From Heterotrichella gracilis (taxonomy: Eukaryota; Sar; Xanthophyceae; Tribonematales; Xanthonemataceae), in contig JAULBX010002667.1 in assembly GCA_032358255.1 (NCBI GenBank), positions 62,001-126,000 of the forward strand: DNA of 64,000 nucleotides, in the 5' to 3' direction. The notes under the pieces were generated by a model that was not told the origin of the DNA, ran no database searches, and saw only the letters and a list, made by a program, of their open reading frames with translations. Below are positions 1-63,960 of this stretch, one piece after another (within the stretch, counting starts at the first letter, position 1; every line of letters begins with the position of its first letter). Position numbers and translations under genes: made by a program.

Positions 1-2859
1 AGGGCGCGTGGTGCAAACCCCCTCCAAACCCCACCCTTGGTATATGCAGCTCCCCTCAGTGAGCGGACGACTGTGGGATCAGTCCGGATCAGAGCTGCAA
101 CATACCATCAGTGTGTATATATACCAATAGCCTCCTTTCCCGCACCTGCACAGCAGCTGGGCAGTCCCATCCCCTTGCGACCCCACCCCCTTCCCGCCGT
201 AAATCCTCCCCTGGATGGGCCCATACCCCAAAACCCTGTGTAGGGCAGGCGCCGTCAGCTGTTGGGGGCACGAGGGGCCTGCCAGTGCATCAAATTGGGC
301 TTGGGCCTCACACATTAAGGCCCCCACTGCCGCTGCATCTCCGGCGCTGAGGGCCACAATGGCTCTGCTGGTGATGTCTGTGTTGACAGACCCTAATAGG
401 GTGTGAAGGCCTTGGTGGGTGGGGGTGGAGGGGTGCGGGAAGCCCGCCTGTGGGAAGGAGGGGGACATAGGGGTCAGCAACGAGTGGTAGCGGTGGGTAG
501 CGGTGGTAGAGCGGGTGGTGTAGGCTTGACAACCCCTTATGAGTTCTGGCCTCGGTATTTTTAGCGGCATGCGTACAGCTGCCACTAAACAACTACCCAA
601 GCACCAAGATGTGGGTCTGGAGGAGTGAAATGACACCAACATACCTGCATGGCGCCTAGTATGGCCACGGTATCCTTGCCCTCCAGAAGATCCACCAGCA
701 CAAAGTACAGCGGTGCCCCCAACATGACCGGAACCACATGCAGCACGTCGCCATCGTAGGTCATGAGCACGGGAGTGTTGCCAAAAGCACAGGCCTGGTC
801 CATGCGCCCGCACTGGGAGGGTGTCAGCCTCTCCCCCTCGTACGCGTGCTGCATTTCCCCCCTTACAGTCAGCTTCAGGTCGTAGGCGCGGTTGAAAGCG
901 CGCGCCACCTGCGAGATGGGTTGATGTGCTGGTTGGAAACACCGTGGGTAAGGGTTTTCGTGCAGTGCGGGAACCTTGGGTGAGGGTTTTGGTGGTGTCG
1001 GGGGCGTGAGCCTCTACCCATTGAACGCATGCTACATCTCTTACAGTCAGCTTCAGGCTCTAGGCGAGATTGAAGGTGCGCACCTTCTGCAGGGTGTGGG
1101 GATGCGGTATGGGAACCCTGGGTAAGGTTTTTTGTGCTCGGCATCAGGCCGCACTGGGTAAGGGTTTCCATGCTTCCGGGTGGAAATATCCTTTGTGGGG
1201 TGTTCCGGGATGGTGTAGGGATCCAAGTCCTCTGAGTTCAGTACCACACACTGCAGCCAATTTTAGGGTTTTTGGTAGGGTTCCCACCCTACCAGCACAC
1301 ACACAGCCGCCGATGACGACAGCCCCTTCTTCAGAGGCAGCGTTGTCTTGTAGTTGCTGATCTCCATGCCGCCTATATGATGCTCTGTGCACAGCTTGTA
1401 CAGCACACCCGCCACGTAGGACCAGAACCCACCCTGCACGCGCGCAAGAAGGTGAAACCCTCGGCAGGGTTTTTGGACATGATAGCTGTGAGTCCTGTGC
1501 ATGGGGATTCTAACGGCACATAAGATCAGAAGCTGCCCTGCACAGGCGCAAGGTTGGTGACCCCTGCGAGAGGGTATTTGGACATGGTGGCTGTGAGCCC
1601 TGTGCTGGGTATTTCAATGGGGTGCAGACTCGTGTGGACCCAGTGCAAGGGTTGATGAAGGTGACCAAGCTGTGCAACATTGGACCAGGACCCTGCACGC
1701 GACAGCAAAATGTTGGCGCCAGTAGGTCAACCCTGTGCAAGGGTTTTCAACAGGCGCATGCGCATCGAGGTGCTTGGAGCGGGAGCACTAAATGAAATTG
1801 ATTGGTTGATGCGTCCACGAGGTGTATGCATGGCGCGGGAACAACCCATCAGTACCGCCACGCCCACCCATCCACCCTTGACACCACCTATACCCACATC
1901 TGTACCCCACCTGCGCACCCAGCACTGTGGAATCCAGTGACAAGCACTGTGGCCCACCTCGCCCACGCCCACCCTAAACCCATCACCCCAACGACCCCCA
2001 CTGTCCCCACCCACGACCATGCCCTTACTCCACCCCCATCCACCCACCCATGCCTGCATTCCCACATTCTGCCACATACGCTTTACCTCCCACCTGTTGC
2101 GCCTGCTCAGCCAGGGCTTCCGGGTCCAGCGGGAAGGTGCGTGGGCCCATCACCTGGCCGGTGTCGGTGGTGGTGGTCATGACCAGGACCTGCTCCGCTA
2201 AGGGTTTTGCCCTGGCAAATAAACCCTGCTCCGTGCCGATGACGATGGTCTTGCCGGGTAGGATGTCGGGGTTCATCCTGGGGTGCAGGGTGTATTTGAT
2301 ATGATGCAAAAATATAGTAAAATTTAATACACAAAAATAAAAAGAGTTGCAAATTCTGCTTGGTGTTCGTGCCATGTTGACAGTGGGCTTGCTCGGCAGT
2401 TTGCTGGGGTTTAATTTGGGGTGCAGGACAGTGTCATACAACACAACAAAAGCATTTGTGTTATGTTTAATACGGAGATATCTCCCCCCGGCCCTCCAGA
2501 GATACATACAGAGATCAACCCCTGTGCGCGCCCAGTGAGGATGGACTTGCTGAGGTGAGGTGACCAATGGCAGCCAGAGCTGCATGTGCCAGGGTATCAC
2601 TCATATGGATACGGCCTGAGAAGCGCGCATCCCCAGCGAGGGGAATCCTCTGCGAGGGGCTGCCGTGCTGGTGTTGGCATGGGGTCAACCAAGGCTTTTA
2701 GGGCCAAAGACTGCCGTATTACAGCTGTTTTCTGTCCTTTTCTCACCTTCTGTAGCTCCCAGCCCAGTCTGAGTGCTCCCCAAACAGGCACAGCCTCCCG
2801 GGGACGAATAGCTCGAAGCACCCATGGTCCTGGGAAGGCGAAGTGTCAGATGGACACAT
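1..2859 (-). CDS. GHMP-family small-molecule (sugar) kinase, 3' end off window
   Basis: Predicted ATP-dependent GHMP kinase of the galactokinase/mevalonate-kinase superfamily, phosphorylating a small alcohol or sugar. Exons on the minus strand: 2859-2747, 2277-2094, 1433-1293, 908-645 and 447-146, all with GT-AG junctions and consistent phase. Visible motifs in order: motif 1 PGRLCLFGEHSDWAG, TIVIGTEQGLFARA, the GGFWSYVAG turn, the ATP loop KKGLSSSAA, CGRMDQACAFG, and the C-terminal GGKGVGSQGDGTAQ. The GEHSDWAG form differs from true galactokinases, so the substrate cannot be named. ATG at 2859 is the first in-frame start; a cttcccag acceptor at 2830 leaves an upstream exon possible. The last exon ends in phase 2 at a GTGCGG donor and no convincing final exon is seen in 1-145, so the gene probably continues left. 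Introns hold decayed copies of the neighbouring exon ends. Confidence 0.85.
1005..1092 (-). repeat. decayed copy of the 5' end of GHMP kinase exon 908-645
   Basis: Degenerate copy of 820-915, including the intron acceptor and the start of the exon. In the frame of the functional exon it has a TAG codon where the real exon continues, so it is not usable as an exon. Confidence 0.75.
1535..1720 (-). repeat. decayed copies of the GHMP kinase exon 1433-1293 acceptor region
   Basis: The segment around 1535-1605 repeats 1428-1505 (ccctgcac-gcgcaag, then tttggacatg and gctgtgag). A further fragment, accctgcacgcgacagc, lies near 1690. All sit upstream, in transcript sense, of the exon they resemble. 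Confidence 0.65.
2385..2432 (-). repeat. decayed copy of the acceptor end of GHMP kinase exon 2277-2094
   Basis: Resembles 2247-2297, including the ggggtgcagg block that forms the acceptor. It lies in the intron just upstream of the real exon in transcript sense. Confidence 0.5.
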
Positions 2860-4481
2860 GGGTGTGTGGCCACGCTTGCTGCTGTTTGGTGGCGAGCCCT
2901 GGTCCGTATTGAGTGAGATTAAGTATGGAGGACTATTGCACCGGTGCAAAGACTGGGTCTTTCCCTCAGTATCTGCTGGGAGAGAGGGGGAATTGACTGG
3001 GATCAACCAGTTGTGTGGGGTTGAGTGTGTACCACCGGTGTTACAAAGAAGCGTGTCTTGAAGTGATCTGGTAGTCGAAAAGGGGTTTGAGACAGGGGTG
3101 CGAATAGGTGACGGGGTGGCAGCTGACTCGTGCCTAAAAATAGGACGGTACTAAGTGCAGTGGAGATGAAGTGCAAGCATGTACTATGTGACATTGACAA
3201 CTGTATTATTGTAATGCTTATGGGTATAGCAACACATTCTTAGGATATAGAGTTACGTTGGAAACCCCGTTCACAACTCGATGGCACCATTTGTATAGGG
3301 CTACTGATTGCTGTTTTATCAGATTCTGCAGATTTGAATGCATGCAATTTTCCTCCTCGTTTTCCGCCTCCCACGAAAACATGCATGCATACAAACCTCC
3401 GCTGAGGGTGCTAAAGCACGAGACAGTCTCCAAATGTTGCACCGTCAGACGAGTTGCTAGGAGGCTGCGTGTATTACAGCGGGCTGTCGTTGTAGCATCA
3501 ACTTGCACGCACTACCTGGGAGTGAGTGCGGTCGAACTTTTGGGACAGGCAGTCTAGATAACCCCCAAAAGCGTGTTGGACAACCTGCTGCAGCAGCGTA
3601 GCCCCACCTGGCACTTTTCCTCGTGATGGGACTAGGCATCAACGTACTACACAGCACGTTGTGGGGGGGAGTGAAAGGCAACGAACCACTCCAGGTACAA
3701 GGTTTTGCTTTCCACCCCGCTCAGTGCGCTGCCCTGTGTGGATATCAACCCGCACCAAACTGGGTTGCTGTGCTATGGTGAAGTGGGTGTGTGGGAAGAA
3801 CAGCAACGCGCTAAAGTCACTGCATTCCGCCTGGGGCATGCGTGCCCTTTCCACCCGCAATCATACCTTTCCCCCACCAATCAGCCACTCACTGTTGTTT
3901 CCAAACACCAAAGATCTCTGTCACGGATCCATCCATCCATGCATTCGGCCGGTGTAGCCGCTGCTAGCGGGCGCATGCCTTCAAACCTGATGCTCGCAGC
4001 GTCGCCACAAACCCTAAACCCTAAACCCTAAGAAAACCTCAACCACCCAACGCCAGTACATTCTCCACAGGCCATCATCATCCCCAGGGGCAATCCCCAG
4101 GACAAGCAAGCCCTGAAGTCATACGCCCACCCCTGGTACGCTACGGTAAAACAAGGTTCATAAGGGTATGCAAGTGCACTGTGGCATTGGCATCCTTACA
4201 CGCATCAGTCGGTGACCAAAGCACACACTACTTTTTATATTGTCCAGCATGTCATACCTGCTTGCGCATCCCCCTCCCTTAGTCTTTGCGGCCAGAGAAA
4301 CCCTAACCTTACCTATCAACTGATAAACTATAATCCCCCTCCCAGTGGCCCAGCCAGCCCTGCACCACCGCGCCACCCCTGCCAAGCGCGGTCAGTAGCA
4401 AGGTGTTTCCTCCCCAGGACACCCCTCTCCCGCCGCCGCTCGCGCCCCTTGCACCCCACCGCCCTACGGACAGTGTGCGCG
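2860..4481. other. divergent intergenic region with a telomere-like word
   Basis: Lies between the divergent GHMP kinase and sulfurtransferase genes, so it should hold both promoters and the 5' UTRs. No coding exon could be supported on either strand. A short interstitial telomere-type run sits at 4009-4031. An open frame continues upstream of 4482 to 4212 and is rich in Arg and Ser, which could extend the sulfurtransferase transit peptide. Confidence 0.5.
4009..4031. repeat. interstitial telomere-type repeat (CCCTAAA)3
   Basis: About three tandem CCCTAAA units. This is the plant/green-algal telomere unit, but it is embedded in single-copy DNA with genes on both sides, so it is not a chromosome end. 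Confidence 0.9.
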
Positions 4482-7400
4482 ATGTCCTCCCCATTCCCCT
4501 CCCTTGTTACGCCCCAATGGCTGGCAGACAGGTGGGTGCAGAATAAAAACAAACTAATAGAAATGGTATTCTTATGCGCCATGCATCAAGTGGGGAGTGT
4601 GCATGTTGCGGGATGGTGTGCGCATGTGAGCCGTTTGCATGCGATCAAGGAAGGCAGGGGCATGCATGCGAATCAGGCACATACGCATCAGTGTGGTGGG
4701 CACCCAGCATGTGCTCACATGACACCATATTGTCAGGTGCACGAGACTCTTGTCAATCACGTACAAGCAAATCAATTGACCACAACCACATGGGCTCATG
4801 CGCATAATGAGCCACGCCATGTAGCATAGCCATGGTGGGTCACGTGCGTGTGCACACTCTTACGGTGCCATGTGGCAGCTGCATGTGGGTCGGGTGCAGA
4901 CACGCAGGCCGTGTGCATGTGCGTACGCTGACGTGGCGCCATGTGGCGGTGCAGGCTGGGGGACCCCGACCTGGTGGTGCTGGACGGCACCTGGTACATG
5001 CCTAACATGGGTGAGTGGCAGATAGGGTTGAGGGGTTGTGCAAGGGGGTGTGCAGCCTACGCAGTGGACCCTGTGCATCTGTCTTGCATTCTCCTCAATA
5101 GTGCACATGCATGTAGCAACCATCCCTTTCACTAGAATTGCTTTCCATACGATCTGCAGACTGTAGGGGTTTATTCATTGAGTGATACGGGGATGCCCCT
5201 CAATATGCCTACCCCCAGAAATTCTGTAGTGAACCATCCAGAGCAATCCAGTCCCAACAAAGACCCCTTTCCCCCACCCACCCCTTTCTTACACCCATCC
5301 CCTGCCCCCGCAGCCAAGAACGCAAAGCAGGAGTTTGCAACCGCCCGAATCCCGGGCAGCAAGTTTTTCGACGTGGATGCAATCTGCGATCCCCACACCT
5401 CCATCCCCCATATGCTCCCCCCCGCCCTCGCCTTTGCAGCGGCAGCGGATGCGCTTGGGGTGGGTACTGACAGCATGGTGGTGGTGTATGATCGCAGCGG
5501 GATGTTCAGCGCGCCCAGGGTGTGGTGGACCTTTAGGGTTTTCGGCCACGACAGGTGCGGGGCAAGGGGTTTGGCGGGCAGTTTAGGTTTTTTTGGGTTT
5601 CGGTGTTCCGCGGGATTGGTGGAACTTGAGGGTTTTTGGCCATGACAGATGAGGGCTAGGGGGTTTGGTTGACAGTTTAGGGCTTTTAGGGTTTGACGTG
5701 CCTAGGGTATGGTGGACCTGTAGGGTTTTTGGCGAGGGGGGTTTGTGTGGACATATCGCTTACAGGAATATCCAGTTGGAACGGTCAGCATTGCTGGTTG
5801 CATGTAGGCTACCTAGGCATCTTTGTGATGTATCTGTGTCGAAGCTGCCCCCCCCGCTAGAGAACAAAAGCATTCTCTCGAACATCACACAGGATGCGAC
5901 AAGCCTTGTCTCCTCTTTATTGGGCCAATTTACACAGGAAATAGAAGACAGGTAAGGTTATTGGACACCTTTTTTATTGATGATTTGATGTAATCACAGG
6001 GTGGCTGTGCTGGATGGAGGGCTACCCGCCTGGTCCCATGCGGGCCTCCCCATGGACACCACGCCAGTGCCCTTGGACAGCCTTGAGGGGCCAGGGGTGG
6101 CGGCGCGGGAGGCGGCAGGTGGGGCTTCCTTGCAGAGTGCAGCATACGCTGCAACGCTGCAGGTACGTGCTGGAGCTTGCTGGCTAGGGCGTAGTTTAGG
6201 GTTGAGGTAAGCGCTGGGGTTGGACGTGCACCAACTGTGCATCACCGGGGTAAATTGGTTGATTTCAAGACAACAAATTTCATACCATTTCTCAAAATGT
6301 TTGCATTTTTACCGCACCACAAAGGAACAGGGCTGCAAAAAGATGTCACAAATAGAGGGTGCACCCAACTCATATCATGATGATCCCACTCATTCCTGAC
6401 AACAATTGCAGGCTGACCAGGTGCGGGATTTGGACCAGATGCTTGCCAACATAGCGGCCCAGGGGGAGGTGGTGGTGGACGCCAGGGGGGAGGGGAGGTT
6501 CAAGGGGAGCGTGCCTGAGCCGCGACCAGGAATAAGGGGAGGTCACATCCCTGGCAGCAAAAACGTGCCCTTTGATGCGGTGCTGCAGGATGGCAGGTGA
6601 GTGATCATGTCTGTATCGACCATGGTATGATTGGGACATGATGGTGTTTTGAAAAGCCTGGTTGATCTACCCAGGGGTGTTGCTGTTCAAGCCATTCCTG
6701 GTTTGTATTAACATCCTAATCTACCGTATAGCCCTGATTGGTTTTACAACAATAATGACTTCAAAATCGATTTAGCGTGCTTCGCAATGCATGCCATGCG
6801 GTGTACTCACAAATAAAAACCCACTCGTCCATCTCTATTTCAGGTACCGTCCAGCCCCAGAGCTTGCATCCATCTTCCAGCAAACGGGTGTGGACACCTC
6901 CCGGCCCGTGGTGGCATGCTGCGGCACTGGGGTAACCGCGTGCGTGCTGGCGCTGGCACTGGCGCAGGTAGACCCTGAGGCCAAGGTGAGACCCTAGAAC
7001 CCTGGTACCCTGGTATAGGTTTTTGCGATGATGTGGTGTGCGGAGGCAAGGGAAGGAGGTGCTGGAGAAAAGTGGTTCCAACTGTAGCTGCTGTGTTTGC
7101 CCTACCATAGGTGTAAGGTGTAGGGTGCATGCTGCGGCATAAGGTATTACTGCATGCGTGTTGGCGCTGGCACTGGCGCAAATAGACCCCGCGGCCAAGG
7201 TGAGACCCTATAACCCTGGTGTAGGGTTCTACATTGCTGGCGCTAGCGGTGGACGTGGTGGTGGATGTGAAGGGTGAGGGCAGGTTGCATGAATCTGATG
7301 GAACCCTATGGTAGGGTAAAATTTGTGCCCCAGCCAGCAATACTATGGAACTTCATTCATCTCCTAGAGCTCCATTTTTACACGACCCCGATACCCAAAA

Positions 7401-8209: not shown

Positions 8210-11200
8210 TCACAGCATCCCCGCGTCATACTGGCGTCGCTTGCGGGGATCCCTGAGCACCCCATAGGCCTCCACCAGCTGCTGAAATTTCCTGGTTGCC
8301 TCCCCCTTGTCCCGGGGGTCGGTGTGCTTGTCGGGATGCAGGCGCTGCGCCAGGGACCGGAAGGCGGCCTGGGTGGAGGTGGGGGGGGGGGGGTTGCACA
8401 ACCGAGGCCGTGCCCGATATATATGTAAGTACCTCATCCCCCCTCCCCATGTGTGCACTTTAGTTTGTTAATAAGAGTGGTCTCACCCACATGAACATCA
8501 TGTGCGGTGACACATCATTTAGTCCATTGATGCATGCATTTGCAGTAAAATTACGAAATCTGCGTAACAGAACAGTGCCCACCTGCACCTCCTCCTTTGA
8601 GCACCCTGGCTTGAGTCCCATGAGCCTGTAATACCCTTTAGGGTCGCCAGGGGCTACGCCGGCTGCCGCGGCTGCCCGCTGCTGGTAGGGGTTCCCCCCC
8701 CGCTGCTGCCACTGGTTTTGCCACTGGTTTTGGCCCCCAGGGTCCCTCCGCTCGTAGGACTCCTGCAGAAGCAATGGAAATTAGAAGCGAAACCTTAAAG
8801 GGGTAAATAATACTTTACATGCGTGACAAAGGGAGGGGATTTTGTCGGTATAATTATTTAAAGCCTCAACGGTTCCCCTCCCGCGCTGCAAATCCCTCTA
8901 GAAGGACCACTCATAGGAGTGCTGCACAGGCAAACTATCAAATTCCCAACAGATCTAAACACAGCGTTGTTGTAGTGTTTCAATAGGGTTCATTGGGTTT
9001 CCCCGCATCCTGCTTGGACCGTGCATTGTTGCAGGGTTTACTGGGGTTCAATAGGTTGATGAGGATCACTGCGGCCTACAAGGATTCCCATTTGTGACCT
9101 TAAGCCTGTGCACCAACACACCACATGGGTTCAACGGGGTTCACTAAGGGTATGTCAAGGGTTCACCAGGGTTTACTAGGGTTCACTAGGGTATGACATG
9201 GGAGCCCACCTCCTGCCTGAACCACTGCCCCTGTTGCCGATGCTGGGACTCGTGTGCAGAATATGCGCGCACCCTCTCAGAATCCCAGGGACCATCGTCC
9301 TGCACCACAGGTTTCGAAGAATTAGGCAGCTCCCCCTTACCCTCCTTCCAAACCTACCCGGACAAAATTTAATTTACCAAGCCAAGGGTGGCTGACATTC
9401 TTCCAAACAAATGGCCGTTGGCTAGAAATGCTAAATTTCCAAAAGAACTTCACAGAACATCATGCATTCAGCCCCAGGAGACAACGTGGGCTCACGAATG
9501 CGCGCGCACCTCCTGGAATTTTGCCATCCTTGCCAGCCACCGTGTCCTGAGCCACGCCTGTGCCGGCACAGCCATGCGCACAGCCAGGGCAGCCAGGACG
9601 AAGGGCAGGGCCACAAAACCCCACAGTAGGGTTTGCAGGGGCAGGGTCTGCCACAGCTCTGTCACCGCCACTCCAACCATGACAGAGGCAGCTGCAGGGT
9701 GGAGGGGTTTGTGGCTTAGGGACTGTTTAGGGTTTCAGGGTAGAGTGGCAATAGAGAGTTGGTTGAAGATTGCCCTAATGTAGGGATTTAAGGGCAAGGT
9801 GTGGCCCCATATATGTGACAACCACTATAAAATCACAGTCGAGGCTGGCTTAGGGTCAAGGCACTGGTTTAGGGTTTAGGCGCTGTTAAGATTGGAGGTG
9901 ACCATTGAGGCAGCTGTTAAAGAGGGATGAGGTACTGCGTGAGATGTGCGCAGGAGCGGGGAACCGGGGGATGTAGGTGGCTTGGAAATCTGCTCCCACT
10001 CCAATGTACTCATTCACCACAAGCACTGACTTGAATGCCTTCACTTCAAATTACGCCTCCATCCCTGACCCTGAAGCCTGTGTAGGATCTTGCTTTAGGG
10101 TCTTGCATGGCAAGGCCTTGCTTTAAACTTTTGGGTATTAAGGTTTTGGGTGCACCCACCTGCCATGAAGCCTGCCCTGGTTTCATTATACACCTGCACC
10201 CCTGCCGCCGCCCCCTCAACGCACCCAGACACCAAAGTTTGCACTGGATAGCCTGCAGCAAGGGGAGGAGGGTGAGCGGTAGACGGGGAAGGGGCGGGCA
10301 GTGTGGTGGGGGGCTGACACTTCGAAACACACACACAAAAGGTCCTGCTCTGGTGGTGCACTCACCCAGGTGTGTTGCGGTGATTAGGTACGCGGGGATG
10401 TACACTGGTGACAGCCTGAACCCTAGGAGGGTGATCTCGGCATCGATGTCGCGCACGTCATCGCACTTGACAGTCTGCCTGCACAAGGGAGGGGGAAAGA
10501 GGGGTTGATCACAATCACACCATCAAATTCAATGCCTGCCCCCGCAAGGTGATGTTGGTTTTCATGGCGCGCGCATGATTGCACTGCTGGTGAGTATGGG
10601 GCCACATTGCATTTGTGTGGTGGTGGAGGTATTTGAACATAAATGTTGCATTACTTTAAGAAACGGCTGCCACGTGTGGGGCCAAGCGGTTGACATTGCC
10701 AGACAACACGCAATGGCTCCCCTCCCTTCAACCCCCCTCCCCGACTCCATACTTGATCCACTGCTTCAGCGCCTCTTGCATGTCCACATGTGACTTTTTT
10801 TCAAGGGTTTCGTGCATTTTTGGCAACCCTAGACTATAATCCTCAAACCCTAAACCCAAGGCAAGGAAGCCCCCTTTCCCCACCCCCCTACTTGATCCAC
10901 TGCTTCAGCGCCCCTTGGAGGTCCTTCTGAAGCCACTCACGTGCCATCTCCTCACCCACATGGGGGGGCATGGTGAAGGGCTGAATGTTGCGCCCCCCGC
11001 CCCCCGGCGCCAGGACCATATCCGGGGACATTTGGCGCGCAATGGCCAATGTGGGGCCGGGGCGCATTTGCACCATGTCCCATTTGGGATATTGGTCCCC
11101 CGCGTACAGCTGCATCCCACGGGTTTCAGCGGGGTAGGGGCGGTGGAGAACCTGCGGTAGGGTTTTCAAGGGTCAAGACGGGGGTGCTTTAGACGCCCAG

Positions 11201-11993
11201 GAAGAAAGGAAATGTGTACAGCCCAGGGCGCATAGACCTTGACAGCATAGTTACATGCATTCCAGCAATACAGCCAGATTAGCAGTCGGTCTTGCACATG
11301 CGGCGCCACGCAGCTCTTTCCTGGCACTGTTTGAACCACTTATTGATCCCACGCGACTTGAGGTCCTTGACAGCATGCCTGCAGGTTATGCTCATAATCA
11401 TGACTGCGCATTGCACAATCACTGCGCCCATGCACCACTGCCAGCAGACCAAGTTCGCACGTGAATCCCGCTCCTATTGCGCGCAGTCCCTGCACACTAT
11501 TATGTCCCCGCCCCACCTGGCCATGAAACACCGCCCGCTGGTACCGCGTCTCCCACCGCCGCTCCCACCGCTTGCTCACGGGGTTGTAATAGCTGCCCAA
11601 ATAATTGAACCCCGCATCGGCCCCATGGAGCACCACATGGGCCTCACATGCCCCCACCCAGAAGGGGAGGAAAACCTCCTCCATGCCATCCACCCCTTGG
11701 GAGGGCGGCTTGTGGAGAAAATGGCTGGAGTGGTAGGTTTGGTAGTCTTCTAGGGCTTCGATTAGGGTTTTGGTGAAGGGCACGGCGCGGGCTTTTGCGG
11801 TGGGGGGTCCTTGGGTGGAGGAGGCGAATCCCCGGGAGAGGGTGCGGGAAATACCGGGATGGAGGGGGGCGGTGGGGTCCCGAAGCCAGCGGGAACGACC
11901 GCGGTGGGAGGAGAGGGGTGTGAGTGGTGGGGACCCTGGCAACCTCTCTGGTGATTGCGGAGTGTGCGTGCTGTGAGGCGCTGGTAGTGCCAT
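8210..11993 (-). CDS. membrane J-domain protein, probable mitochondrial targeting
   Basis: Predicted Hsp70 co-chaperone anchored in a membrane. Eight exons with consistent phase: 11993-11517, 11151-10892, 10478-10366, 10252-10160, 9691-9510, 9299-9210, 8762-8583, 8368-8210, giving 517 residues. The Arg/Ser-rich start contains GISRTLSRGFASSTQ near residues 50-65, typical of a mitochondrial presequence. Residues about 100-160 hold an aromatic-rich block with FWVGACEAHVV and YNPVSKRWERRWETR; I do not recognise this family. A transmembrane helix lies near 332-356. A Gln-rich linker follows. The J domain begins YYRLMGLKPGCS near residue 446, with HPD at 476-478, and ends the protein at YDAGML. A C-terminal rather than N-terminal J domain makes it a class III (DNAJC-like) protein. 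An intron carries a 13-G run at 8381-8393. Confidence 0.85.
10748..10786 (-). repeat. decayed copy of the 3' end of J-domain gene exon 11151-10892
   Basis: Repeats 10886-10924, the end of the exon encoding ALKQWIK together with its GTAnGG-like donor. It lies downstream in the same intron. Confidence 0.75.
11247..11385 (+). repeat. dispersed repeat, copy 1
   Basis: About 130 bp in the intron between J-domain exons 1 and 2. It matches, in inverted orientation, a segment of a CDC48-like gene intron at 35625-35770. Shared blocks include ccagattagcagtc, tacatgcggcgcca or its close variant, and gctctttcctggcactg. Two copies in unrelated genes suggest a mobile or dispersed short element; no terminal repeats or target duplication could be defined. 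Confidence 0.75.
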
Positions 11994-14900: not shown

Positions 14901-15201
14901 GCTGTGCTTGAACATGTTTTCGTGCCTAAAATTTGGCTGCAAGCAGCAGATTGCCGTCATGGCGTGTTGCGTCGGCTGTGTGTGCCATGCGCGTGGCATG
15001 CCACTGCAGAACACGCATTGATGCCAGTGGCATCCAGTGTACATCCAAACCCATGCGACGGGTGGTTTGGCGCGCTGTCTTGCACCCACAACGCCTTGGA
15101 TCATCCAAAATCACAAGCCACTTGGAAGTGAAATATCTGGCAAAACTTGACGTTCGCGCGCGCGTGCCTGACGGTCGCCCTTCCCCATTCCCACAGCCAA
15201 G
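11994..15201. other. 3.2-kb region without a supported gene
   Basis: Upstream of both flanking genes (divergent). Open frames exist, for example 12162-12602 (-) and 13957-14625 (-), but none shows a recognisable domain, consistent splice pattern or repeated family motif. An isolated exon-like block at about 14441-14528 has a tgcag acceptor and a GC-type donor (CAGgcaagt), but no partner exons. The region has several short internally repeated words. Confidence 0.4.
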
Positions 15202-17172: not shown

Positions 17173-17267
17173 GGGGTGCAGCAGCTGTGGTTTTTAAGCC
17201 TTAACATTGCTTGACTATTCATTTAAGGGTTAAATCAGCTTTAAATGAAATTCAAATGAAGTTTAAT

Positions 17268-17325
17268 AGTTTCTTCCCTGCCAGGGACGCGCGCGTCAAG
17301 GGGCGCAAGCTGCTGTGAGGGTGGA
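17268..17325 (+). repeat. duplicate of the YcnI-A gene terminus including the stop codon
   Basis: Copies 17128-17176: the segment encoding the last residues (VKGRKLL) and the TGA. It is preceded by a ccctgccag that could act as an acceptor, so it could serve as an alternative last exon. Confidence 0.85.
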
Positions 17326-34986: not shown

Positions 34987-41022
<6,036 letters not shown>

Positions 41023-48000: not shown

Positions 48001-50359
48001 CCCCCCTCTGTGCAGGTCCTGAGCACCCGCGCCCGCAAGGACGTGCGCGTGGAAGACATCAAGGTGCAGGTGTGCCTCTACGCCTTCGACTGCCTATACC
48101 TCAATGGGGAGGAGCTCATGCAGCGGCCGCTCACTGAGCGAAGGGCGGCGCTGCACGCTGCCATCAACCCTAAGGAGGGTGAGATGCAGATAGCCACAGC
48201 CAAGGTGGGTTGTGGGGGCTGGGAGGAGGTTTTTTAAAATCCTAAACCCTATGCATTCATTGGAGGCCCTAAACCCTATGCATTGGGCTGTTTGCACCTC
48301 AACACGCGAGAGCTCATTGGCTGACGCAGCACAGGGCGGCGCTGCATGCTGCCATCAATCCCAAGGAGGGGGAGATGCAGATAGCCACGACGGAGATGAG
48401 TTGCAAGGTTTAGGGCACCCTATCACAGATTTAGCCCAAATGCTCACGTGAAGTGTCCACCCGCCAGGCTTCATAAGGCAGTTCCTGGAAGAATCTAGTG
48501 CCCAATAGTGCTGGGGCATGACTTTAAATTTCCTAGACTTCACGTACAAACCTACGTGTTCCTACTCCCCACCACTGCACCCCTCTCCCCTCCCCTCTCA
48601 CCCCCCGCCCCACCCCCCACCCCTTGCAGGTCTCCCGGGAGCTGGAGGAGCTGCAGCAATTCCTGGACGAATCAGTGACTGCGGGTACCGAGGGCCTAAT
48701 TGTGAAAACCCTAGACTCCACCTACGAACCCTCACGCCGCTCCGTGAACTGGCTGAAGCTGAAGAAGGACTACCTGGATGGGGTGGGGGACACCTTTGAC
48801 GTGGTGGTGGTGGGCGCGTGGTATGGCAAGGGGAAGCGAGCAGGTGTGTGCAGAAGGGTGGGGAGGAAATCGTGGGTGGAAAGGTGTACTCAGGCTGGCT
48901 GGTTCGCCTGACTCTGGTTGTGGTGGGCGCGTGGTACGGTAAGGGGATGCGGGCAGGTGAGTGAGTGCAGTGTGGTCATTCCAGACTCATAAATCCCCCG
49001 CCACTGCCTATGTCTTACCAACATTGGTAAATTACGCCGTGCATTCCTATCCAGCACTAACACTCACCAAAACCCCCACCTTGGAAACAGGCAAGGGCAA
49101 GCGGTTCCAGACCTGTCCTTTGCCACAAAATTGCGCACCCCTCAAAACCCTACTCTACCCTAACCCCTCTAAAACCCAACCCCTCAAAACCCTACTCTAC
49201 CCTAACCCCCCCCGTCTCGGGCACTCACCCTAGCCAAAACACCCTCCACCCCCCCAGGCGGCTTTGGCTCCTACCTGCTTGCTGTGTACGATGGCGAGGG
49301 GGAGCGGTTCCAGACCATCAGCAAGATTGGCACTGGGTTCAGCGAGGAGCTGCTGGTGAGCCTGAGTGAGAGACTCAAGGAGCACATCATACCGGGGCCA
49401 AGGGCGTACTACAGGTGAGGGCGCGGTGCGGTGGGGTTGCTATCACCATGTGTGTAGATCTGACTCGTGGCGGGATGGGTGGGCCATGCCCTCTCCTCCT
49501 CTCCCCCTGGGTCAACTTTGCACCCACCCCACCCCCCACCACACGCACACACACCTGCACCCACATTTTTATCTCAAACACATTTTTTACATAAATATAT
49601 CAATTTTAATTTTAATTTTAATAAGTTTAGAGCGCTACTACCCCCCTCCTCACCCTCCAACCCCTATCCCTCGCAGCTATGGGGAGACGCTCACCCCCGA
49701 CGTGTGGTTCGCCCCCAAGGTGGTGTGGGAGGTGAAGGCCGCTGACCTCAGCATCAGCCCAGTGCACAGGGCAGCAGAGGGGATGGTGGATCCAAGCAAG
49801 GTGAGGGTGGGCGGGGATGGAGGGGGCAATGGCGGTGGGTGCCAGTGGGGGTGGGATGTGAAGGCGGTTTGCATACAATATCCCCTCCCCCAGGCTCCTT
49901 CTAAGGGTGGTGCAGAAGGTGGGACTCCCCGCCCGCCGCCTTCAGGTGGGCGGGGGCTGGGGTTGGCGCTCAGTTGCATGGTAACGGGCGCGGAGCATGT
50001 ACAACTTTGGTGGCATGCCCCCCTTGACGAGGGGGGTGACGCCAGCCCTCACATGGTTGTGGCACCTGTCCACGCAGGACATATGCACCCCCCGCCTGGT
50101 CTGCGTGCATGCGTGACGACAAATCCTCGCCAACCACCACCTTAGCACTATACCCCTACTCACCATCTCCAGCCCACCCACACCCACACCACTCCCACCC
50201 CACCCGCAGGGCATCTCCATCCGCTTCCCCCGCCTGGTGCGCGTGCGTGATGACAAGTCCCCAGAGGATGCAACCAGCGCGGAGCAGGTGGCAGAGATGT
50301 ACAGGCGACAGGCGGTGATGCAGCAGGGGGGCCCGGCTGCCGCAGTGGATGAGGACTAG
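42036..50359 (+). CDS. LIG1: DNA ligase I (ATP-dependent), dual start
   Basis: Seals nicks in Okazaki fragments and repair. Sixteen exons, phase-checked: 42036-42308, 43114-43335, 43665-43821, 44188-44321, 44574-44876, 45216-45356, 45609-45740, 46137-46234, 46576-46762, 46918-47013, 47468-47620, 48016-48204, 48630-48843, 49258-49414, 49677-49800, 50210-50359; 909 residues. Residues 1-44 are basic and resemble a mitochondrial presequence. A second ATG (42168, residue 45) begins [10 protein letters not shown], a PCNA-interaction box. A charged disordered region follows. The DNA-binding domain starts about residue 264. The adenylation motif is [10 protein letters not shown] with Lys564 as nucleophile; further motifs are [31 protein letters not shown] and, at the C-terminal fold, [13 protein letters not shown]. 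Yeast CDC9 and plant LIG1 use similar dual starts. Nearly every intron has exon-end duplicates. Confidence 0.96.
43868..44010. repeat. minisatellite in LIG1 intron 3
   Basis: About two units of 65-75 bp containing atggtgcatgcattgtcc(a/g)cccacatggcttg and a gcatgtgggt(c/a)t block. Weaker partial units continue to about 44180. Confidence 0.8.
44905..45030 (+). repeat. fragments of the LIG1 exon 5 end in the following intron
   Basis: gagctggggattgg at 44913-44926 and ggggattgaggtgggg plus cagtcatcaag near 45000-45030 echo the exon 5 end (44848-44876) that encodes [12 protein letters not shown]. Confidence 0.55.
45985..46045 (+). repeat. decoy copy of the LIG1 exon 8 start with acceptor
   Basis: An acceptor (ccctgcag) and about 40 bases matching exon 8 (46137 on) with a few changes. 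Lies in the preceding intron. Confidence 0.88.
47080..47125 (+). repeat. copy of the LIG1 exon 10 end with donor
   Basis: Repeats 46980-47022 (cacgtgctgga-ggggaaggtcaaggtgggt) with a 1-2 base length difference in the G run. Lies in the following intron, donor intact. Confidence 0.88.
47326..47346. repeat. interstitial telomere-type repeat (CCCTAAA)3
   Basis: Three tandem CCCTAAA units inside LIG1 intron 10. Confidence 0.9.
47553..47815 (+). repeat. 108-bp tandem repeat across the LIG1 exon 11 donor
   Basis: About 2.4 units. Unit 1 is the end of exon 11, its GTAGGG donor and 40 bases of intron. Unit 2 is nearly identical, differing by about two bases. Unit 3 is partial and diverged. The donors at 47620 and 47728 are 108 bases apart with no stop between them. 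Confidence 0.95.
48300..48405 (+). repeat. copy of the LIG1 exon 12 end
   Basis: Repeats 48110-48205 (gagctcat-g, agggcggcgctgca-gctgccatcaa, ggagatgcagatagccac). The donor region is changed (gagatgag for aaggtggg). Confidence 0.88.
48905..48965 (+). repeat. copy of the LIG1 exon 13 end with donor
   Basis: Repeats 48800-48848 (gtggtgggcgcgtggta-gg-aaggggaagcg) followed by a gcaggtgagt donor, which is a better donor match than the gcaggtgtgt one assigned to the exon. Confidence 0.88.
49085..49120 (+). repeat. short copy of an internal LIG1 exon 14 segment
   Basis: acaggcaagggcaagcggttccagacc resembles the exon 14 region at 49285-49316 (gcgagggggagcggttccagacc). Confidence 0.65.
50080..50142 (+). 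repeat. decoy copy of the LIG1 last-exon start with acceptor
   Basis: Acceptor (ccacgcag), then cgcctggtctgcgtgcatgcgtgacgacaaatcc, resembling exon 16 at 50230-50262, which encodes [10 protein letters not shown]. Lies in the preceding intron and is frame-disrupted. Confidence 0.85.
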
Positions 50360-51718
50360 CTTTTGGGTGTTTCTGTTGGTTTCTGTTTTAGTGGTGCGGG
50401 TAGGCGCCAGCGCCGGGAGGGTATTTACAGGCAACACTGCGGTATTATAGATGCAGGGAAAGCACGAATGCAGACAATTCAGCTTGATGTATCACCTGAG
50501 GGGTGCTCAGATGAGGAAATAGATGCGGGTACACAAGGGGAGGTGGGTGGTGAGCCCTTTGAATGGCGCTTGTGCTCAGCGGGGGGATGTTGCGGAGACC
50601 CAGTGATCCCAAGCTTGCACCACCAACATACCTGATAGTTCCACGCACATGCCTGCTGCAAGGCCATAGTGCCCTTTGTAAGTATAGGTCCGACCCGGTC
50701 GACATATTCATGATACACAGGCTGCTAGACAGAGCTTGGTGCACCAATGGGTGCAAGCGGTTGCTCCAGGTGTTGCTATTCTGGCTGGAGGAAGTAAATA
50801 AACAAACGATAAGCTACCGTGCTATTACTGCTGCACCCATATGCATAAAGACTGTGGTATCATTCACACCAGCTAGCTTCTCACAGGCTACAGCCTGTGG
50901 GGCTAGCCAGGCTGCTTGGGGGCAATTTTCTCGATGGACCCCTACAATTCTGCACGGTGGGAACTCACGTTGCTCGACGGTTTGGCGATACAAGGTTGGA
51001 TGGTGGGGGTCGTGTGTGTTGGTCCTAAGCGAGGCGTCCTTGGCATTTTCGTACCCCTGCTTCTCACACAGGAGAGGGTTACCAAACCAGCACCAAACCC
51101 TCGAGTGCACCTCGTGTGGGAATGTGTGGAGGCGAAACGACGGTCGTGCGCAATCAGATTCTGCAACGTTTGCGGACGAGCGCACCGAACGGAATGATGA
51201 AAGTCACGCTGGAGGTTTGCGCGCTCACCATTCGCCCACGACTGCGTCAGGCAGGGGAGTTGCAGCTGACAAAATATCTGGCTGCTTCTGAGCCAGGGAA
51301 GTCCCTTATGTAAGCCGTTCTGCTGTTTAGCAAACCGCTCGCGGCGTGGAGAGTGGGGTTAGCAAAGCACGCTCAGGGTTACGGTAGCATAACTCGGCGC
51401 CTCTAGCACTTGCTGCTTCACAAACCCAACACATAAAGAGCAACAGAATACATAGTATTGCAAAGCGAACCAAGTTGCCTACGACCTGCTACGCCGTAGT
51501 TCCCATCGCAACCCATCCATGTGGTCGTCCCTCCTGCCGATTTGAAACCAACAGCCCAGCTTGAAACCCGCTACCAGCCACTTTCAACTCCAGTTGGTGC
51601 CAACCGGCAAGCATATCACCTTACTCGTCCAAGCGAGTGCGGGAAAGGGTTGTACTCTCCCCGATTTGTTGCCATCTCCAACAATCCACAGCCCATCGTA
51701 CAGCAACTGTGGCCCGCC
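50360..51718. other. intergenic between LIG1 and the PP2C-like gene
   Basis: Holds the LIG1 3' UTR and the PP2C-like promoter. The frame of the PP2C-like first exon is open back to 51521 but contains no ATG there, so an upstream exon is possible. No other gene recognised. Confidence 0.5.
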
Positions 51719-53971
51719 ATGTTGAAGGGCAGCCGACGGGTCATCAAGGCCGCCTTCAGCGCGCCTTTGAAGGCAGTCAGGCGCACCCGGTCCGATGAGC
51801 CCATCGCAAAGCAAGCTGGGCCAAGCGAGGAGGTGTATGTGGGCAGCACTGCGTTCAGAACAGCAGACACCCTAACGCACACCTTTGACAACGCACCCGT
51901 CGCCAGTGTGTCATCCTCTGTGGCTGGGTACCAAGCTATGGACCCTTATGCGGACGATTACAGCGTTCAGGTGAGGAAGGAGCCCTCGATTGTGACTGTT
52001 TGGCGTGACATGTGCCCCATCGGCGCCCCTCCCGCAGTGCCTGCATCGCTTGACATGCCATCTGTGTACAGCCTCGGATTGTGTCACGGATCGAGCCTTG
52101 GTACCTCACCATGCACGGTGCAGCACGTCTCTACGCCTACTCCGACCTGATGTTGTGGTTCAATTAGCGTCATGTGGTCGTGGTCGCATGTTCTGGGCGT
52201 TCACGTGCTGGTGTAGCTAAGACGCAGTGGCTGCTTTGACGACCACAGTAACGGGTTACCTAACGCACGTTTTTGGCAATGCATCGGGCACCACGCACAT
52301 CGGCTTCATCCCTGCGTCCTAGCGACCCTTGCTATTGGCATTCACACACTTTTCCAGTCTTAGGTTCTGCCATTTTTTTCTCGAAGGTTCTGTCAACCCC
52401 CGCACAGCATGCCATGCCATGCTTCGCATGCTGCACTGACCTCCCTCGTTTCCTCCCTCATTCCCGCTGACGCCACTCTTTCCCTCTTGTTCCACAGGTG
52501 GACAGCCGAGGCAAGCACCGGCACGTCTTCGCCCTCCTCCTGACCAACTCCAAAAAGAACCATTCTTTGAGCTTCCTGAAGCGCAACCTCTACAAGCAGC
52601 TGCTGCAAGAGGTGGACGCCTCGCCCAACAACATACCGGCGGCCCTGCACGCCGCGCTGGCCACCGTCGACGCGCGGTTCCGCGGCATCCACCACTTCAA
52701 CGGCAGCGTGGTGGAGGGCATGTCGGTCTCAATGCTTTACTTCGACACTACCACCTCGCACCTGCACATGGCCCAGTACGGGAGCGGCACCCAGGGGGTG
52801 CTGGTGCCTGAGACAGGGAGGGAGGACGGGGCCGAGCTGGCGGCGGTGCTGCAGCGCCAGGTGGCGAGCTTCGGCGGGCGCCGCACCAACACCCCCCTGC
52901 TGGAGGTCACCACCTATGAGCTGACCAGGGACGTGGAGGCGGTGGTTCTGGGCTCAGCAGGACTCTGGTGAGTGGCAAACCCTTGCAGAACCCTAGCGCT
53001 TACCCTGTCCCAAGTTAGCACAAGCCCTCCGCTGCCTGCTTGCCCCGCCATCGGTCCACACACTGCACCCATATGCCAGCCACGCGCTTACAAGACTCTT
53101 CCAGTCCTTGCTATCTATTTGCCCTTGTCACAACTTATGTGCTGTGCATTCAGTGTGCACACTGCCATTCCCCGCACGCTCTTTTAGTGGGTACATGCCT
53201 GGCCTGTGCAAACTTGTGTCAACCCAAAACCCTGACCAGTCAAAACCCCAAGCCAAAACCCTAACCAATGCCCTCTCCTTCCCCCGCAGGTCTGAGCTGT
53301 CCCCCTCCAAGGCCGCCCTCCGCATGCAGCACTACTTCGACACCACCCCCTGGGCCACCAGCGGCAACGCCGCCGCCCACCTGGTGCAGTTCGCCCTCCA
53401 GACCGTCAACCGCCGCACCACCCGCACCACCGACGCGCGCATGTCCAGCCTGCGGGACACCACCCACCTGCAAAGCCTGCTGGTCGGGGACCGCAGCAAC
53501 TACCGCTACGCCGGTCGCCAGGTGCTGCGGCGGCGACGGGGCGACGTCCACAAGGACCTGACAGCCATCACCATCAAGCTAGAGTGGAGCCCCGAGGCCG
53601 CGCCATCCGCATCATCGGGCGGCGGCATGGCAATGTTCCGGCGGTCGCCCACGGGCTCCGCCCCGCTCCGCAGGCGTTGGTCCTCGGCATCCAGCATGCA
53701 ATCCGCCAGCTTCGGCAAGAGCTCGGCTCTGGCGACATCGGCGGCGGCGTCGGTGGCTGCGCAGCGGCATTGGGACCTTGTGCGCATGCATGTGCGCGGG
53801 TTTGGGGCGGAGAGCCGCGCCGCCACGCTGCGCAAGTGGTGGGATGTGGCGGAGCAGCTGCGTCTGCAGGAGAGGCGGGCTGAGGCTGGGAAGGGTGGGG
53901 CGCCAGTGGGGCTGCCGCTGCCGGTGATCACCGCACCCACAGCCCAGATGCTTGCAGCCGCTGCCTTGTAG
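51719..53971 (+). CDS. PP2C-like protein lacking metal-binding residues (probable pseudophosphatase)
   Basis: Three exons: 51719-51970, 52498-52967, 53290-53971, phase-consistent, 467 residues. From residue about 85 the fold order matches PP2C/PDP-type phosphatases: an FALLL strand where VFDGHGG is expected, an FLKRNLYKQL helix, AALATVDARF, EGMSVSMLYFD, LHMAQYGSGTQGVLV, TYELTRDVEAVVLGSAGLWSELS, NAAAHLVQFALQ and GDVHKDLTAITIKLEW. The metal-binding Asp residues are missing: no DGHGG, GSAGLWS instead of GSDGLWD, and HKDLT instead of RDDIT. Phosphatase activity is therefore unlikely, and a binding or regulatory role is inferred. The C-terminal 130 residues are Ser/Ala-rich, then amphipathic helices. 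The start at 51719 is the first in-frame ATG and is not certain. Confidence 0.75.
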
Positions 53972-57947: not shown

Positions 57948-60900
57948 CTATGCCCCCAAGCACATCATCAGTGTCTGTCCTGAGAGCAGGTTGACCCCAA
58001 AATGAGGGGCTGCTTTGGCTAGCTTCTTGCCCAGAGGGCACATTGCACAGCCCTTGGTGGGGTGGCAGCTGCCCAGGCAATCCAGGAACAGAGGGCAGCT
58101 GTTGCACTGAGTTACTGCATTGCCCTTGCCATCACTTGCCTTGGATCCAAAGAAGTCTTGTGCACAGCTGGTGCAGCCCTTGCCATCCACGCACTGTGCG
58201 CAGCCGGTGGGGCAGGGGGCGCAGGTGGTGGGTGTACCTGGCATCTTGTAGTACCCCTTGGGGCAGGTCTTGCAGCCCTGTCATGCACAGGCATCATGTC
58301 AAATTGATGGCGTTTACTACGCAACCCTGCATGCATCCTAACACAATACTGTCTGGGATCTGATACTATCTTCCGTAGTATGTATTCCACAATCCACACA
58401 TAACAGCAAAGGGTGCTACCAAGCTGCAAGGCCAATCAATGGTTGGACAGCGTACCTTGACAATATCGCAGTCGGTGCAGCCCACGCCTAGCACAGAGCA
58501 CTTGGTGCAGGTGGGGGGATCATATCTGCTCGTGTTGGCTTTGTTGGTTGTTCTAGGGATGTGCACATATCCCTCAGGGCATTTGCTGCAGCCCTTGCCA
58601 TCCACACATCCCCGCGCGGTGCAATCCGCCGCTGTGGTGGTTGGTGACGCAGGGGACATGTTGCAGGGCAGGCACAAGGTGTGACTAGCGTCCCACCTGC
58701 AATTGCACATGCACGGAAATGGTTGGTATGCCTGCATTGCAATGTTGTGGCGTCATTATGGCGAGAAATTGCGAATATGGATAAGTACTAGACAGGCTTG
58801 CAAGCTGACACCAATTTATATGTGTAATTTGCCCACATAATAATCCACCATATAGTACCGTACTCAAACCAGAAACATGTCCATAGACATCGCATAGCAT
58901 TTTAACCAGAGCCAGGGTTTATTGTTCAGTGCAGCGGCCTCCACACAGTCTGTTAATCCATTGTAATACAGTCACAACACCCAGCCAAGGCAGCCATGTG
59001 CACACAGCAGCAGGGAGCACTGCATGTTCAAGCACCGACACAAATACTTTGAGCACTCACTTGTAGTACCCTGGCTTGCAGGAAGTGCAGCCAATTGCCT
59101 GGGTGCAAGTAGCACAGCCATCTGTCTTTTGGTAGCCAGGGGGGAAAGCCAACCCATCAAGGTTGTCAGCTGAGAAGGTTCTGCATGTGGCGCATGATGA
59201 GTAGGTGCTCTGGACGTTCACTTGCCATGGCGAACCCTGGCCTGGAAGGAGGTAGTAGCCGGCCTGCAGCGGGGTTGGGAGTAGTTAGAGGTTGTTGGGT
59301 AGAGCTGTTAACATAGCCAGCAAGGTATGCTGCCTGGTTAATTGCTAGCATTCATAGCTGAGGTATGCATTCTAACAATTTGAGACAGCTCATGCAAGTG
59401 TTTTCCCTGATAGAATTTAAGCTTACCGTAGTAAGAAATACATTCCTATAAAGAAATAAGGAATTAACGTTGATACATGCTCAATCGCATTCGAATAAAT
59501 GTTTATAGAATGTCCAGATAGCACACTTCTTGTTGTTCATAGATCACAGACCATCCTTGTACTTCAGATGGATTTAAATATAATTACTCGGGTGTTCACT
59601 GCTGTTTGACTGTTACAATACACATTCCAATTGCCGGGTACATGCCATCGACTTGTAACCTTGTGTTCCTGCAATCTCATCAGCACTGGTGGATATCTCC
59701 GGATAAAATAATGGGTATGAACCCTTGCTACACTGCAGTGTATGCACACCTTGCATTTGAGGCACCCCTTGCCTGCTACACAAGCACCAACACAGCTGTC
59801 AGGGCACTGCACGCACACGTTGATACTGGTGCTGCCCTGTAGGTCTGGCTCCTGCACATTCACATGCAGCAGTCAGCCATTGACCTATTGAAGGCACCTC
59901 GTCTGTTGAGTCAGTGTTGACACATTGGTTTGTTGCCGCAACCAACAGCCTTCAATGTGCGCATGTGCGTGCCGTGGCAGCCTTGCTTGCAAAATGAGCT
60001 TAATATTGTAGGTGGCAACTGCTACTAAACGACAGGCAGTGCGCAAAATTCTTACCATACTGGATTTACAGATACACAAGGTAGCTGCACCAGGCCAGGA
60101 TGGCTGTGCGACCAGTGTGAATGCATCACAGGCATGAGCTGCATCGTACCTTTTTTAGGAAGTAGCCCCCCTTGCACGACGTGCACCCCTTGGCATCTGA
60201 CTTCGCACAATTGAGGTTGGTGATAGCAATACAGCGCACAGTAAAGAGATCCTGATAATATTGTAGAAAATAGCTATAGTAACTATTGCCTTGGGAAAGG
60301 TACCCCGGCTTGCAGGCTGTGCATCCCTTATTGTAGTCACAATTTGCGCAATTGGGGGGGCACGTTTCCAGGTGGACCGGACCATATGGATAGTCTTCTT
60401 CCACCCAGAAGCACCCCTTGGGTGTCTCGTCTTCAGTCACGGATGTGCACTTGTAGCCATCGCAAGCAGAGCAGCAAGAGCCAAACTGCACATGGAGGCG
60501 GTTTGGTTTCAGTGACGATGAAGCATATGGGATGCCTTGCTAGTCTGCTGCATGTCCACTGCAAGCGCGCCGCATGTCTTGGTTGCAGCACTCATCATAT
60601 TGGATGCCTTTGCTAGGCTGCTGAATCCCACTGCAATTACTCATTTATTTATATATTTCCTTATTCAATGCTTATTTACTTATGTATCTATTCCATTGCA
60701 AGTGTGGGGGTCTTGGTTGCAGCACTCACCATATCTCTACAGTTGTAGCAGCCTGCTGGGGTGGTCCATTCCACGTCGTTTTCCCCACTGTCCTGGTAAC
60801 TGAGTCCATGATGCTGTTCAGGTAGCCAAATCAGGCCCTTAGGGCATTTGAAGCAGCCTGTCCGGGCGTTCCAGTCATCGCAGCTGCTGCTGACGCAGAT

Positions 60901-63900: not shown

Positions 63901-63960
63901 TGCAGAGTACCAAGGGTTCAGGGGGTGCAGCAAGTCCCGGGGGTTAACCAATTGAAGGGG
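57948..63960 (-). CDS. large cysteine-rich repeat (furin/VSP-like) surface protein, 5' end off window
   Basis: At least twelve exons run right to left: 63899-63778, 63475-63296, 62830-62726, 62372-62198, 62008-61859, 61660-61494, 61109-60730, 60485-60150, 59851-59750, 59263-59061, 58696-58456, 58277-57948. Each encodes one or more units of the form C-x2-C...GC-x2-C-x(1-3)-GY/G, for example KGCTSCPKNFLL, GCTACKPGYL, KGCTSCKGGYF, GCTSCKPGYYK, KGCSKCPEGYV and CKTCPKGYYK. This spacing is that of furin-like, growth-factor-receptor-like and variant-surface-protein-like Cys repeats, which form disulfide-bonded extracellular rods. The last exon ends MMCLGA-stop without a transmembrane helix, so this end is probably secreted or joined elsewhere. 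The gene continues beyond the right edge; signal peptide and total length are unknown. Confidence 0.8.
60575..60630 (-). repeat. copy of a Cys-rich gene exon end and donor in the next intron
   Basis: gtcttggttgcagcactcatcatattgg at 60577-60604 repeats 60710-60738, the exon end and its donor. A nearby block, ggatgccttgctag / ggatgcctttgctag, is duplicated at about 60530 and 60602. Confidence 0.75.

Follow-up and report, generated by a model that had tools for sequence, protein, structure and literature searches.

We analyzed a 64,000-nucleotide stretch of the Heterotrichella gracilis genome (contig JAULBX010002667.1, positions 62,001 to 126,000 of the forward strand; hereafter the window), which lies within a 68.5-Mb assembly of 903 contigs. 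Most intron-containing genes in the window carry short direct copies of their own exon ends in the neighboring introns or just past the gene end, and these copies are often separated by tracts of TTTAGGG, which we take to be the telomere repeat of this species, as in plants and green algae. Light-harvesting genes, with 43 matches to PF00504 at the exon level, mark the genome as that of a photosynthetic eukaryote, and contig C626 encodes, in two pieces, a telomerase reverse-transcriptase RNA-binding domain.

In the plus-strand LIG1 gene, self-alignment recovered the copies that a prior sequence-only reading of the window had described. An exon 3' end with its donor and intron start (46977-47035) recurs at 47080-47137 (period 103, 88% identity); the copied part includes the last 37 bp of exon 46918-47013, and the spacer contains ATTAGGGTT. 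A 2.4-copy array (47550-47809, units at 47550, 47658, and 47765, period 108) repeats the last 72 bp of an exon, its donor, and a TAGGGTTT-rich intron start. Another exon 3' end (48129-48197) is copied at 48320-48388 (period 191, 87%) across a spacer with two CCCTAAA-type tracts (48241-48251 and 48267-48278), while a fourth, with its donor (48802-48850), is copied at 48915-48963 (period 113, 88%) across a spacer without a telomeric 7-mer. One LIG1 intron also holds a 21-nt CCCTAAA tract (47326-47346, minus strand). On the acceptor side, also on the plus strand, intron positions 45999-46044 match 46123-46168, which comprises the acceptor and the start of exon 46137-46234 (period 124, 87%). Human DNA ligase 1, used as a check on the gene model, aligns with it in two stretches (E 4.8e-192 overall), broken at the duplicated exon end. 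In the one case that bears on a shift of splice site, the gene finder preferred the second donor; the second copy of the 47550 array is absent from the human protein, which marks this stretch as extra. The model as a whole (42168-53971) runs on into a possible second gene, and the finder probably fused the two.

Similar copies lie in the other genes. On the minus strand, a GHMP-kinase gene has an exon end at 819-963 copied in the intron at 1002-1137 (period 183, 72%) and an exon edge at 1410-1509 copied at 1514-1613 (period 104, 76%). The plus-strand sulfurtransferase gene contains a 2.3-copy array of an exon end plus TTTAGGG-rich intron start (5523-5733, period 94), as well as an exon end with donor at 6914-7006 that is copied at 7127-7220 (period 213, 86%). 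In the minus-strand J-domain gene, the exon edge 10871-10924 reappears in the intron at 10732-10785 (period 139), with a CCCTAAA tract in the spacer (10845-10857). The plus-strand YcnI-A gene has copies of both kinds: an exon start with acceptor (15870-15904, copy 15784-15818, period 86) and an exon end with donor (17125-17175, copy 17271-17321, period 146, 90%), and part of the latter copy was called an exon by the gene finder. YcnI-A is the first of two adjacent YcnI-like paralogues (14914-19720), and only the first has exon-end copies. The remaining examples are all on the minus strand: three pairs in a TBL-like gene (22846/23047, 23857/23977, and 24149/24341, within 22846-24492), a pair in a CDC48-like gene (39387-39518 and 39710-39841, period 323, 74%) whose exon assignment varies between model runs, and a 25-bp pair in a Cys-rich gene (60576-60600 and 60710-60734, 96%) that spans a donor as judged by eye.

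Telomere-like tracts also occur in the window apart from these pairs. A 20-nt TTTAGGG tract (28633-28652, plus strand) begins 7 bp past the predicted donor at 28626, and an 18-nt CCCTAAA tract (16504-16521, minus strand) lies about 24 bp past the predicted donor at 16480. Another 20-nt TTTAGGG tract (17441-17460, plus strand) is located immediately beyond the predicted end of YcnI-A, and a 23-nt CCCTAAA tract (4009-4031, minus strand) is intergenic.

Of the ten multi-exon models predicted in the window, seven contain a sense copy with a score of 38 or more, either in an intron or just past the gene end; antisense copies score no higher than 27 in any gene. The CDC48-like model (34987-42037) tops at 31 with the final models, its 39387/39710 pair having been intron-to-exon under the first models, and the models at 18670-19720 and 30005-31425 have no copy above background. 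Together with the Cys-rich gene, assigned by eye, this makes eight of eleven genes, compared with the at least eight of ten stated by the sequence-only reading. The observation itself is confirmed.

To place the window in context, we used a main sample of 24 sequences (294 kb in total), from which bacterial stretches and an all-N locus (L008) had been removed. One further locus (L001) was left out before counting for its overlap with the window. The bacterial stretches (L002, L003, and L028) served only as a control, except that L028 remained among the training sequences of the gene finder. The contigs concerned, C1 (L002 and L003) and C100 (L028), have a GC content of 0.36-0.38 and look like a bacterial companion or contaminant. 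C1 is 894 kb long and gene-dense, with long bacterial-type open reading frames, and we take the proteins of both, as read rather than searched, to be from Bacteroidetes. Genes were predicted by a self-training finder trained on the sample, and its final run on the 24 sequences predicted 54 genes with 386 exons and 332 introns, with a donor consensus of CAG/GTGRG and an acceptor consensus of TGCAG/G (slashes mark the exon-intron junctions). The gene set is incomplete, as some genes were missed, including the Cys-rich gene (about 57.9-61.1 kb, minus strand).

When the nearest 150 bp of each flanking exon was compared with the adjoining intron, 46 of the 332 predicted introns carried a copy of the exon end (score of at least 40). 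Controls were nearly empty: one of 664 comparisons with antisense introns, none of 664 with introns of other genes and, in a first sample, none of 366 with introns two away from the exon. Repeat pairs were overwhelmingly direct (116 versus 5 inverted) and local, with a period of at most 600 bp in 109 of the 116 direct pairs. Within the window, self-alignment gave 31 pairs, 27 direct and 4 inverted, and 26 of the direct pairs are at most 600 bp apart. The bacterial contigs of the same assembly yielded no local pairs in 30 kb, which speaks against an artefact of assembly or search.

The intronic copies decay without coding constraint. Across 61 pairs of an exon and a non-exon copy, mismatches at codon positions 1, 2, and 3 numbered 105/986, 96/985, and 207/969, or 21% at the third position against 10% at the first and second. 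This twofold difference is what would be expected if the intronic copy drifts neutrally and the exon changes only at silent sites. Alignment gaps were divisible by three in only 9 of 90 cases. As the sequence-only reading had noted, most copies keep their splice dinucleotides (26 of 29 aligned cases for GT and 12 of 15 for AG), and at about 10% divergence such retention would require no selection. Its view of a continuing process that copies exon ends together with their splice sites is borne out as well, although its statement that copies fill the introns is too strong, since copies and spacers together occupy 11,983 of 128,934 intron bases (9%). The distribution of periods is two-modal: 47 of 88 pairs have periods below 150 bp, with a peak at 100-110 bp, and 32 of 88 fall at 150-260 bp. 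Few or no periods occur in the gaps, with two pairs at 140-170 bp and none below 60 bp. In the one pair of the class near 200 bp whose spacer was inspected by eye (6914/7127), no decayed middle copy was seen.

The copies are concentrated at exon ends. Junction-spanning pairs made up 41 of 74, compared with 19.4 +- 3.6 under random placement (maximum 32 in 500 trials). When placement was limited to sites that spare the coding sequence, a condition that excluded 24 of 88 pairs, 51 of the remaining 64 were at exon ends versus 16.9 +- 3.4 expected; the donor side accounts for 34 of these and the acceptor side for 17. Thus, as far as gene predictions and assumed rates allow, copies are commoner at junctions than elsewhere, so the outcome that the sequence-only reading had named as refuting its view did not occur. 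The bias also goes far beyond what survival and detection would produce. Our simulation of both effects, which used a guessed indel rate, uniform ages, and guessed exon constraint, placed 23-26% of pairs in contact with an exon, against 80% observed.

Between young copies there is often a spacer outside the copied unit that resembles (TTTAGGG)n, on one strand or the other. AAACCCT is the commonest 7-mer in introns, and non-coding sequence holds 964 telomeric 7-mers against 237 expected. A telomeric 7-mer is present in 26 of 46 spacers of pairs with periods below 150 bp (5.1 expected from intron segments outside duplications), in 14 of 31 at 150-260 bp (4.0 expected), and in three of five above 260 bp (1.1 expected). 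The sequence-only reading missed this filler, its concentration just past donors, and the scarcity of periods of about 140-170 bp.

The strongest test of the telomere link starts from the tracts. We compared the left and right 120-bp flanks of 29 exact (TTTAGGG)3 sites, with telomeric words masked; these are the first 29 distinct sites in listed order, not a random draw, and are covered by loci L029-L056. Direct copies flank 13 of the 29 at a score of at least 28, and 10 of the 29 at a score of at least 40. Mismatched flanks gave 0 of 810 and inverted flanks 0 of 29, while random positions gave 4.9% of 4000, a background that reflects the abundance of such pairs in this genome. At 8 of the 13 duplicated sites, a copy touches a predicted exon. 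Some of these loci are very simple: L048 has 29-bp copies and a spacer consisting entirely of 22 nt of pure telomere repeat, L044 has copies of 28 and 27 bp with 24 nt between them, and L047 has 35-bp copies (97%) that are also 24 nt apart. At the few loci inspected by eye for bases in register with the repeat, there are two at L048, two at L044, and none at L031 and L029. No telomeric 7-mer occurs in the 40 bp before copy 1 at 12 of the 13 loci, nor in the 40 bp after copy 2 at 6 of the 13, so in those places the tract is confined to the junction.

Tracts also crowd the starts of introns. Runs of at least 10 nt reach 20.0 per 10 kb in the first 50 bp of introns (33 runs), compared with 4.0 in mid-intron (38), 6.7 in the last 50 bp (11), 2.2 in intergenic sequence (19), and 0.4 in exons (3). 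Indeed, 31 of 81 runs lie within 40 bp of a donor, where 9.2 are expected. The same pattern appears genome-wide without gene models, in counts that include overlapping matches: AGGTGNG is followed by a tract within 30 bp in 621 cases versus 246 for the same order at 100-130 bp, and by an opposite-strand tract in 601 versus 244. The mirrored order, with the tract before the donor-like motif, was counted for one orientation and gave 164. (TTTAGGG)3 itself has 834 matches (reversed control, 0) and (TTTAGGG)2 has 5629 (control, 5), overlapping matches again included, and the listed (TTTAGGG)3 places are distributed along contigs, away from contig ends. At several places, the donor-like motif plus tract recurs at steps of 92-113 bp (C23:72995-73247, C11:65632-65881, C13:318011-318152, C25:43097-43216, and C34:107607-107735), which points to arrays.

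We suggest that these structures are probably best explained by staggered DNA breaks near exon ends that are filled in, patched with telomere repeat, and joined. The breaks would favor the vicinity of exon ends and would most often span the 5' splice site, leaving both broken ends with the same overhang of about 25-90 bp. The overhangs would be filled in, a telomere patch of about 20-45 bp would be added to or captured by one end, and joining of the ends would then give a copy, a telomere patch, and a second copy in direct orientation. Where the overhang crosses an exon end, splicing could continue at the outer, original site, so that the protein would be unchanged and the intron would gain one copy plus the patch. 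The inner copy would be free to decay, and the unit might amplify again into a tandem array. When a duplication crosses an exon end, the outer splice site can still be used, so the duplication is tolerated and the intron grows; this step follows directly from the geometry and supports the earlier suggestion of intron growth. The break itself, its staggered form, the fill-in, and the joining are what we infer from these products, and telomerase, rather than captured telomeric DNA, may be the maker of the patch. Fill-in guided by CST, which is better known from telomere maintenance, would tie the duplication step to telomere repeats, and by analogy with known systems, fill-in duplication and telomere patching may belong to one account. 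As for the preference of the breaks for exon ends, we can only speculate that events tied to transcription or splicing are responsible. A bolder version, which we put forward tentatively and consider less likely than its alternatives, holds that breaks form at 5' splice sites or close by while genes are transcribed or spliced and are handled like telomeres, with repeats added, the complementary strand filled in, and the ends then joined. Such repair would be a main engine of intron growth in this lineage and would have placed exon ends and splice sites in introns at thousands of sites.

Several observations weigh against the break-and-patch explanation. Telomerase should leave TTTAGGG by copy 1 and CCCTAAA by copy 2, yet at the nearest edge of the 13 duplicated loci, 6 fit this polarity and 7 do not; synthesis by telomerase is therefore no more than suggested, and capture of telomeric DNA would serve as well. 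No flanking duplication was found at 16 of the 29 (TTTAGGG)3 sites, and the spacers of 20 of 46 short-period pairs and of 17 of 31 long-period pairs lack a telomeric 7-mer. Copy identity shows no link with the longest tract in the spacer (rho 0.17, p 0.26, n=46). In addition, at 7 of the 13 duplicated loci a telomeric 7-mer lies within 40 bp after copy 2, an arrangement that the foremost alternative explains directly. A profile search for CTC1 was uninformative, with no match here or in any control genome.

In that alternative, which we regard as rather unlikely but the most credible of the rivals, the telomere-like tracts came first and form fragile DNA, and slippage or unequal exchange then duplicated the exon end and the tract as a unit. 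Besides the tracts after copy 2, it would account for arrays with a tract in every unit (L017, L018, L019, and the window array at 47550) and for donor-plus-tract motifs at regular steps, such as C23:72995/73107/73219. It fits poorly with the loci that lack a telomeric 7-mer outside the copies, on the far side at 6 of 13 and on the near side at 12 of 13, and it offers no reason for tracts of both orientations to lie just within introns.

Much less probable is ordinary random tandem duplication, with an apparent excess at exon ends that reflects the loss of duplications within exons and the longer recognizability of pairs that include an exon. One copy is indeed conserved, as the codon-position pattern indicates, which helps detection, and the simulation left out a faster deletion of purely intronic repeats. 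However, with both effects included it fell well short of the 51 of 64 observed, and the excess persists among pairs of at least 85% identity, 27 of 32 of which are at exon ends versus 6.4 +- 2.2 expected. Neither does random duplication predict the telomere filler. Based on the placement tests and the simulation, with its guessed rates, we rejected random duplication plus selection as the sole cause.

We give equally little weight to the idea that the tracts were inserted as a small mobile element or as a retroelement tail, making long target-site duplications and preferring intron starts. Long direct repeats around a short insert that favors one type of site would suit such an element, but only telomere repeat lies between the copies at the cleanest loci (L048 and L044), and no other common spacer sequence was apparent by eye, with no formal search run. 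Marginally less probable still is that tracts near donors were retained as an aid to splicing. The fivefold tract density in the first 50 bp of introns relative to mid-intron would agree with this, but the two orientations would read differently in RNA and yet occur near donors in similar numbers (621 and 601), and the flanking duplications are left unexplained. Finally, it is very improbable that the copies serve as alternative or mutually exclusive exons. The mostly retained GT and AG could speak for this reading, but it was rejected on the basis of the gap lengths and of mismatches at codon positions 1 and 2, which are half as frequent as at position 3 rather than rare.

The sequence-only reading had also raised intron birth by duplication of junctions. 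Similar donor and acceptor surroundings were found in 4 of 318 introns (14 of the 332 were too short for the windows), compared with 0 of 308 in the control at the same threshold, and in none of the four do the splice sites sit at matching points of the repeat. We therefore rejected intron birth as the main process. Intron gain by AGGT tandem duplication resembles our case in being a local tandem duplication that carries splice sites, but the duplications described in PMC4974935 create a new intron or exon, whereas here existing introns lengthen, with no matching donor-acceptor repeat. Introners, including some known algal families, are alike in that repeated insertions shape introns; as described in PMC9860276, they are one element copied at many places, some families having target duplications of 3-9 bp. 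Among the mostly local pairs examined here, each copy comes from the neighboring exon, and only the telomere motif appears to be shared.

The closest parallels come from primates, rodents, and horse, in which telomere repeats have been inserted where double-strand breaks occurred (PMC2246262, PMC7215372). These mammalian interstitial telomeric sequences are likewise short inserts away from chromosome ends, some with a direct target duplication that the reports attribute to staggered breaks and telomerase. The loci examined here share the short repeat array away from contig ends and, at 13 of 29, the target duplication. In the counts that these reports give, target duplication is confined to a minority (6 of 130 in rodents, 4 of 25 in primates, and 3 of 66 in horse, plus two complex horse loci), and the fraction of human loci that lie in introns is described as consistent with insertion at random. 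In this genome, by comparison, 13 of 29 sites are duplicated, intron starts are rich in tracts, and the 68.5 Mb hold thousands of them. For the duplication step, Schimmel and colleagues described small tandem duplications from CST-guided Pol alpha-primase fill-in at 3' overhangs (PMC8355091), and end-joining of protruding ends is also on record (PMC5730883). The former duplications are direct, with a size set by the overhang (overhangs down to 43 bp), and ours are similarly direct and head-to-tail (116 direct versus 5 inverted). Telomere filler and exon-end preference are not part of the duplications as described in PMC8355091. Among the literature search results listed, we found no description of telomere filler together with exon-end duplications. 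Mammalian breaks are already known to receive telomere patches; what looks new here is the scale, the placement at exon ends, and the growth of introns.

The growth of introns and the many splice-site look-alikes within them still await explanation, and in most genomes the traces are gone. In this genome, divergence dates the traces and telomere repeat tags them, so that the origin, decay, and placement of events become countable. The bias toward sites just past donors would tie splicing or transcription to DNA breakage, and the filler would tie telomere maintenance to gene structure. There is also a practical warning for gene finding: this genome has many almost perfect spare exon ends whose splice sites look functional, and our finder took one into the LIG1 model.

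Other repeats in the window are of different kinds. Two related inverted genes (30040-31506 and 34041-32589, 73% identity, within 30005-34076) are almost intronless and have no exon-end copies. Besides this pair, the only strong distant repeat in the window is a dispersed inverted match between 11248-11367 and 35636-35761 (126 columns, 88%), possibly a mobile element. The TBL-like gene model contains a coding tandem repeat at 20233-20946, with units of about 93-99 bp. In the wider sample, a single intron of locus L011 (3800-4540) holds copies of the upstream exon end as well as three copies of the downstream exon start, each of the latter with a pyrimidine tract and an acceptor-like AG, and with TTTAGGG-like sequence between them.

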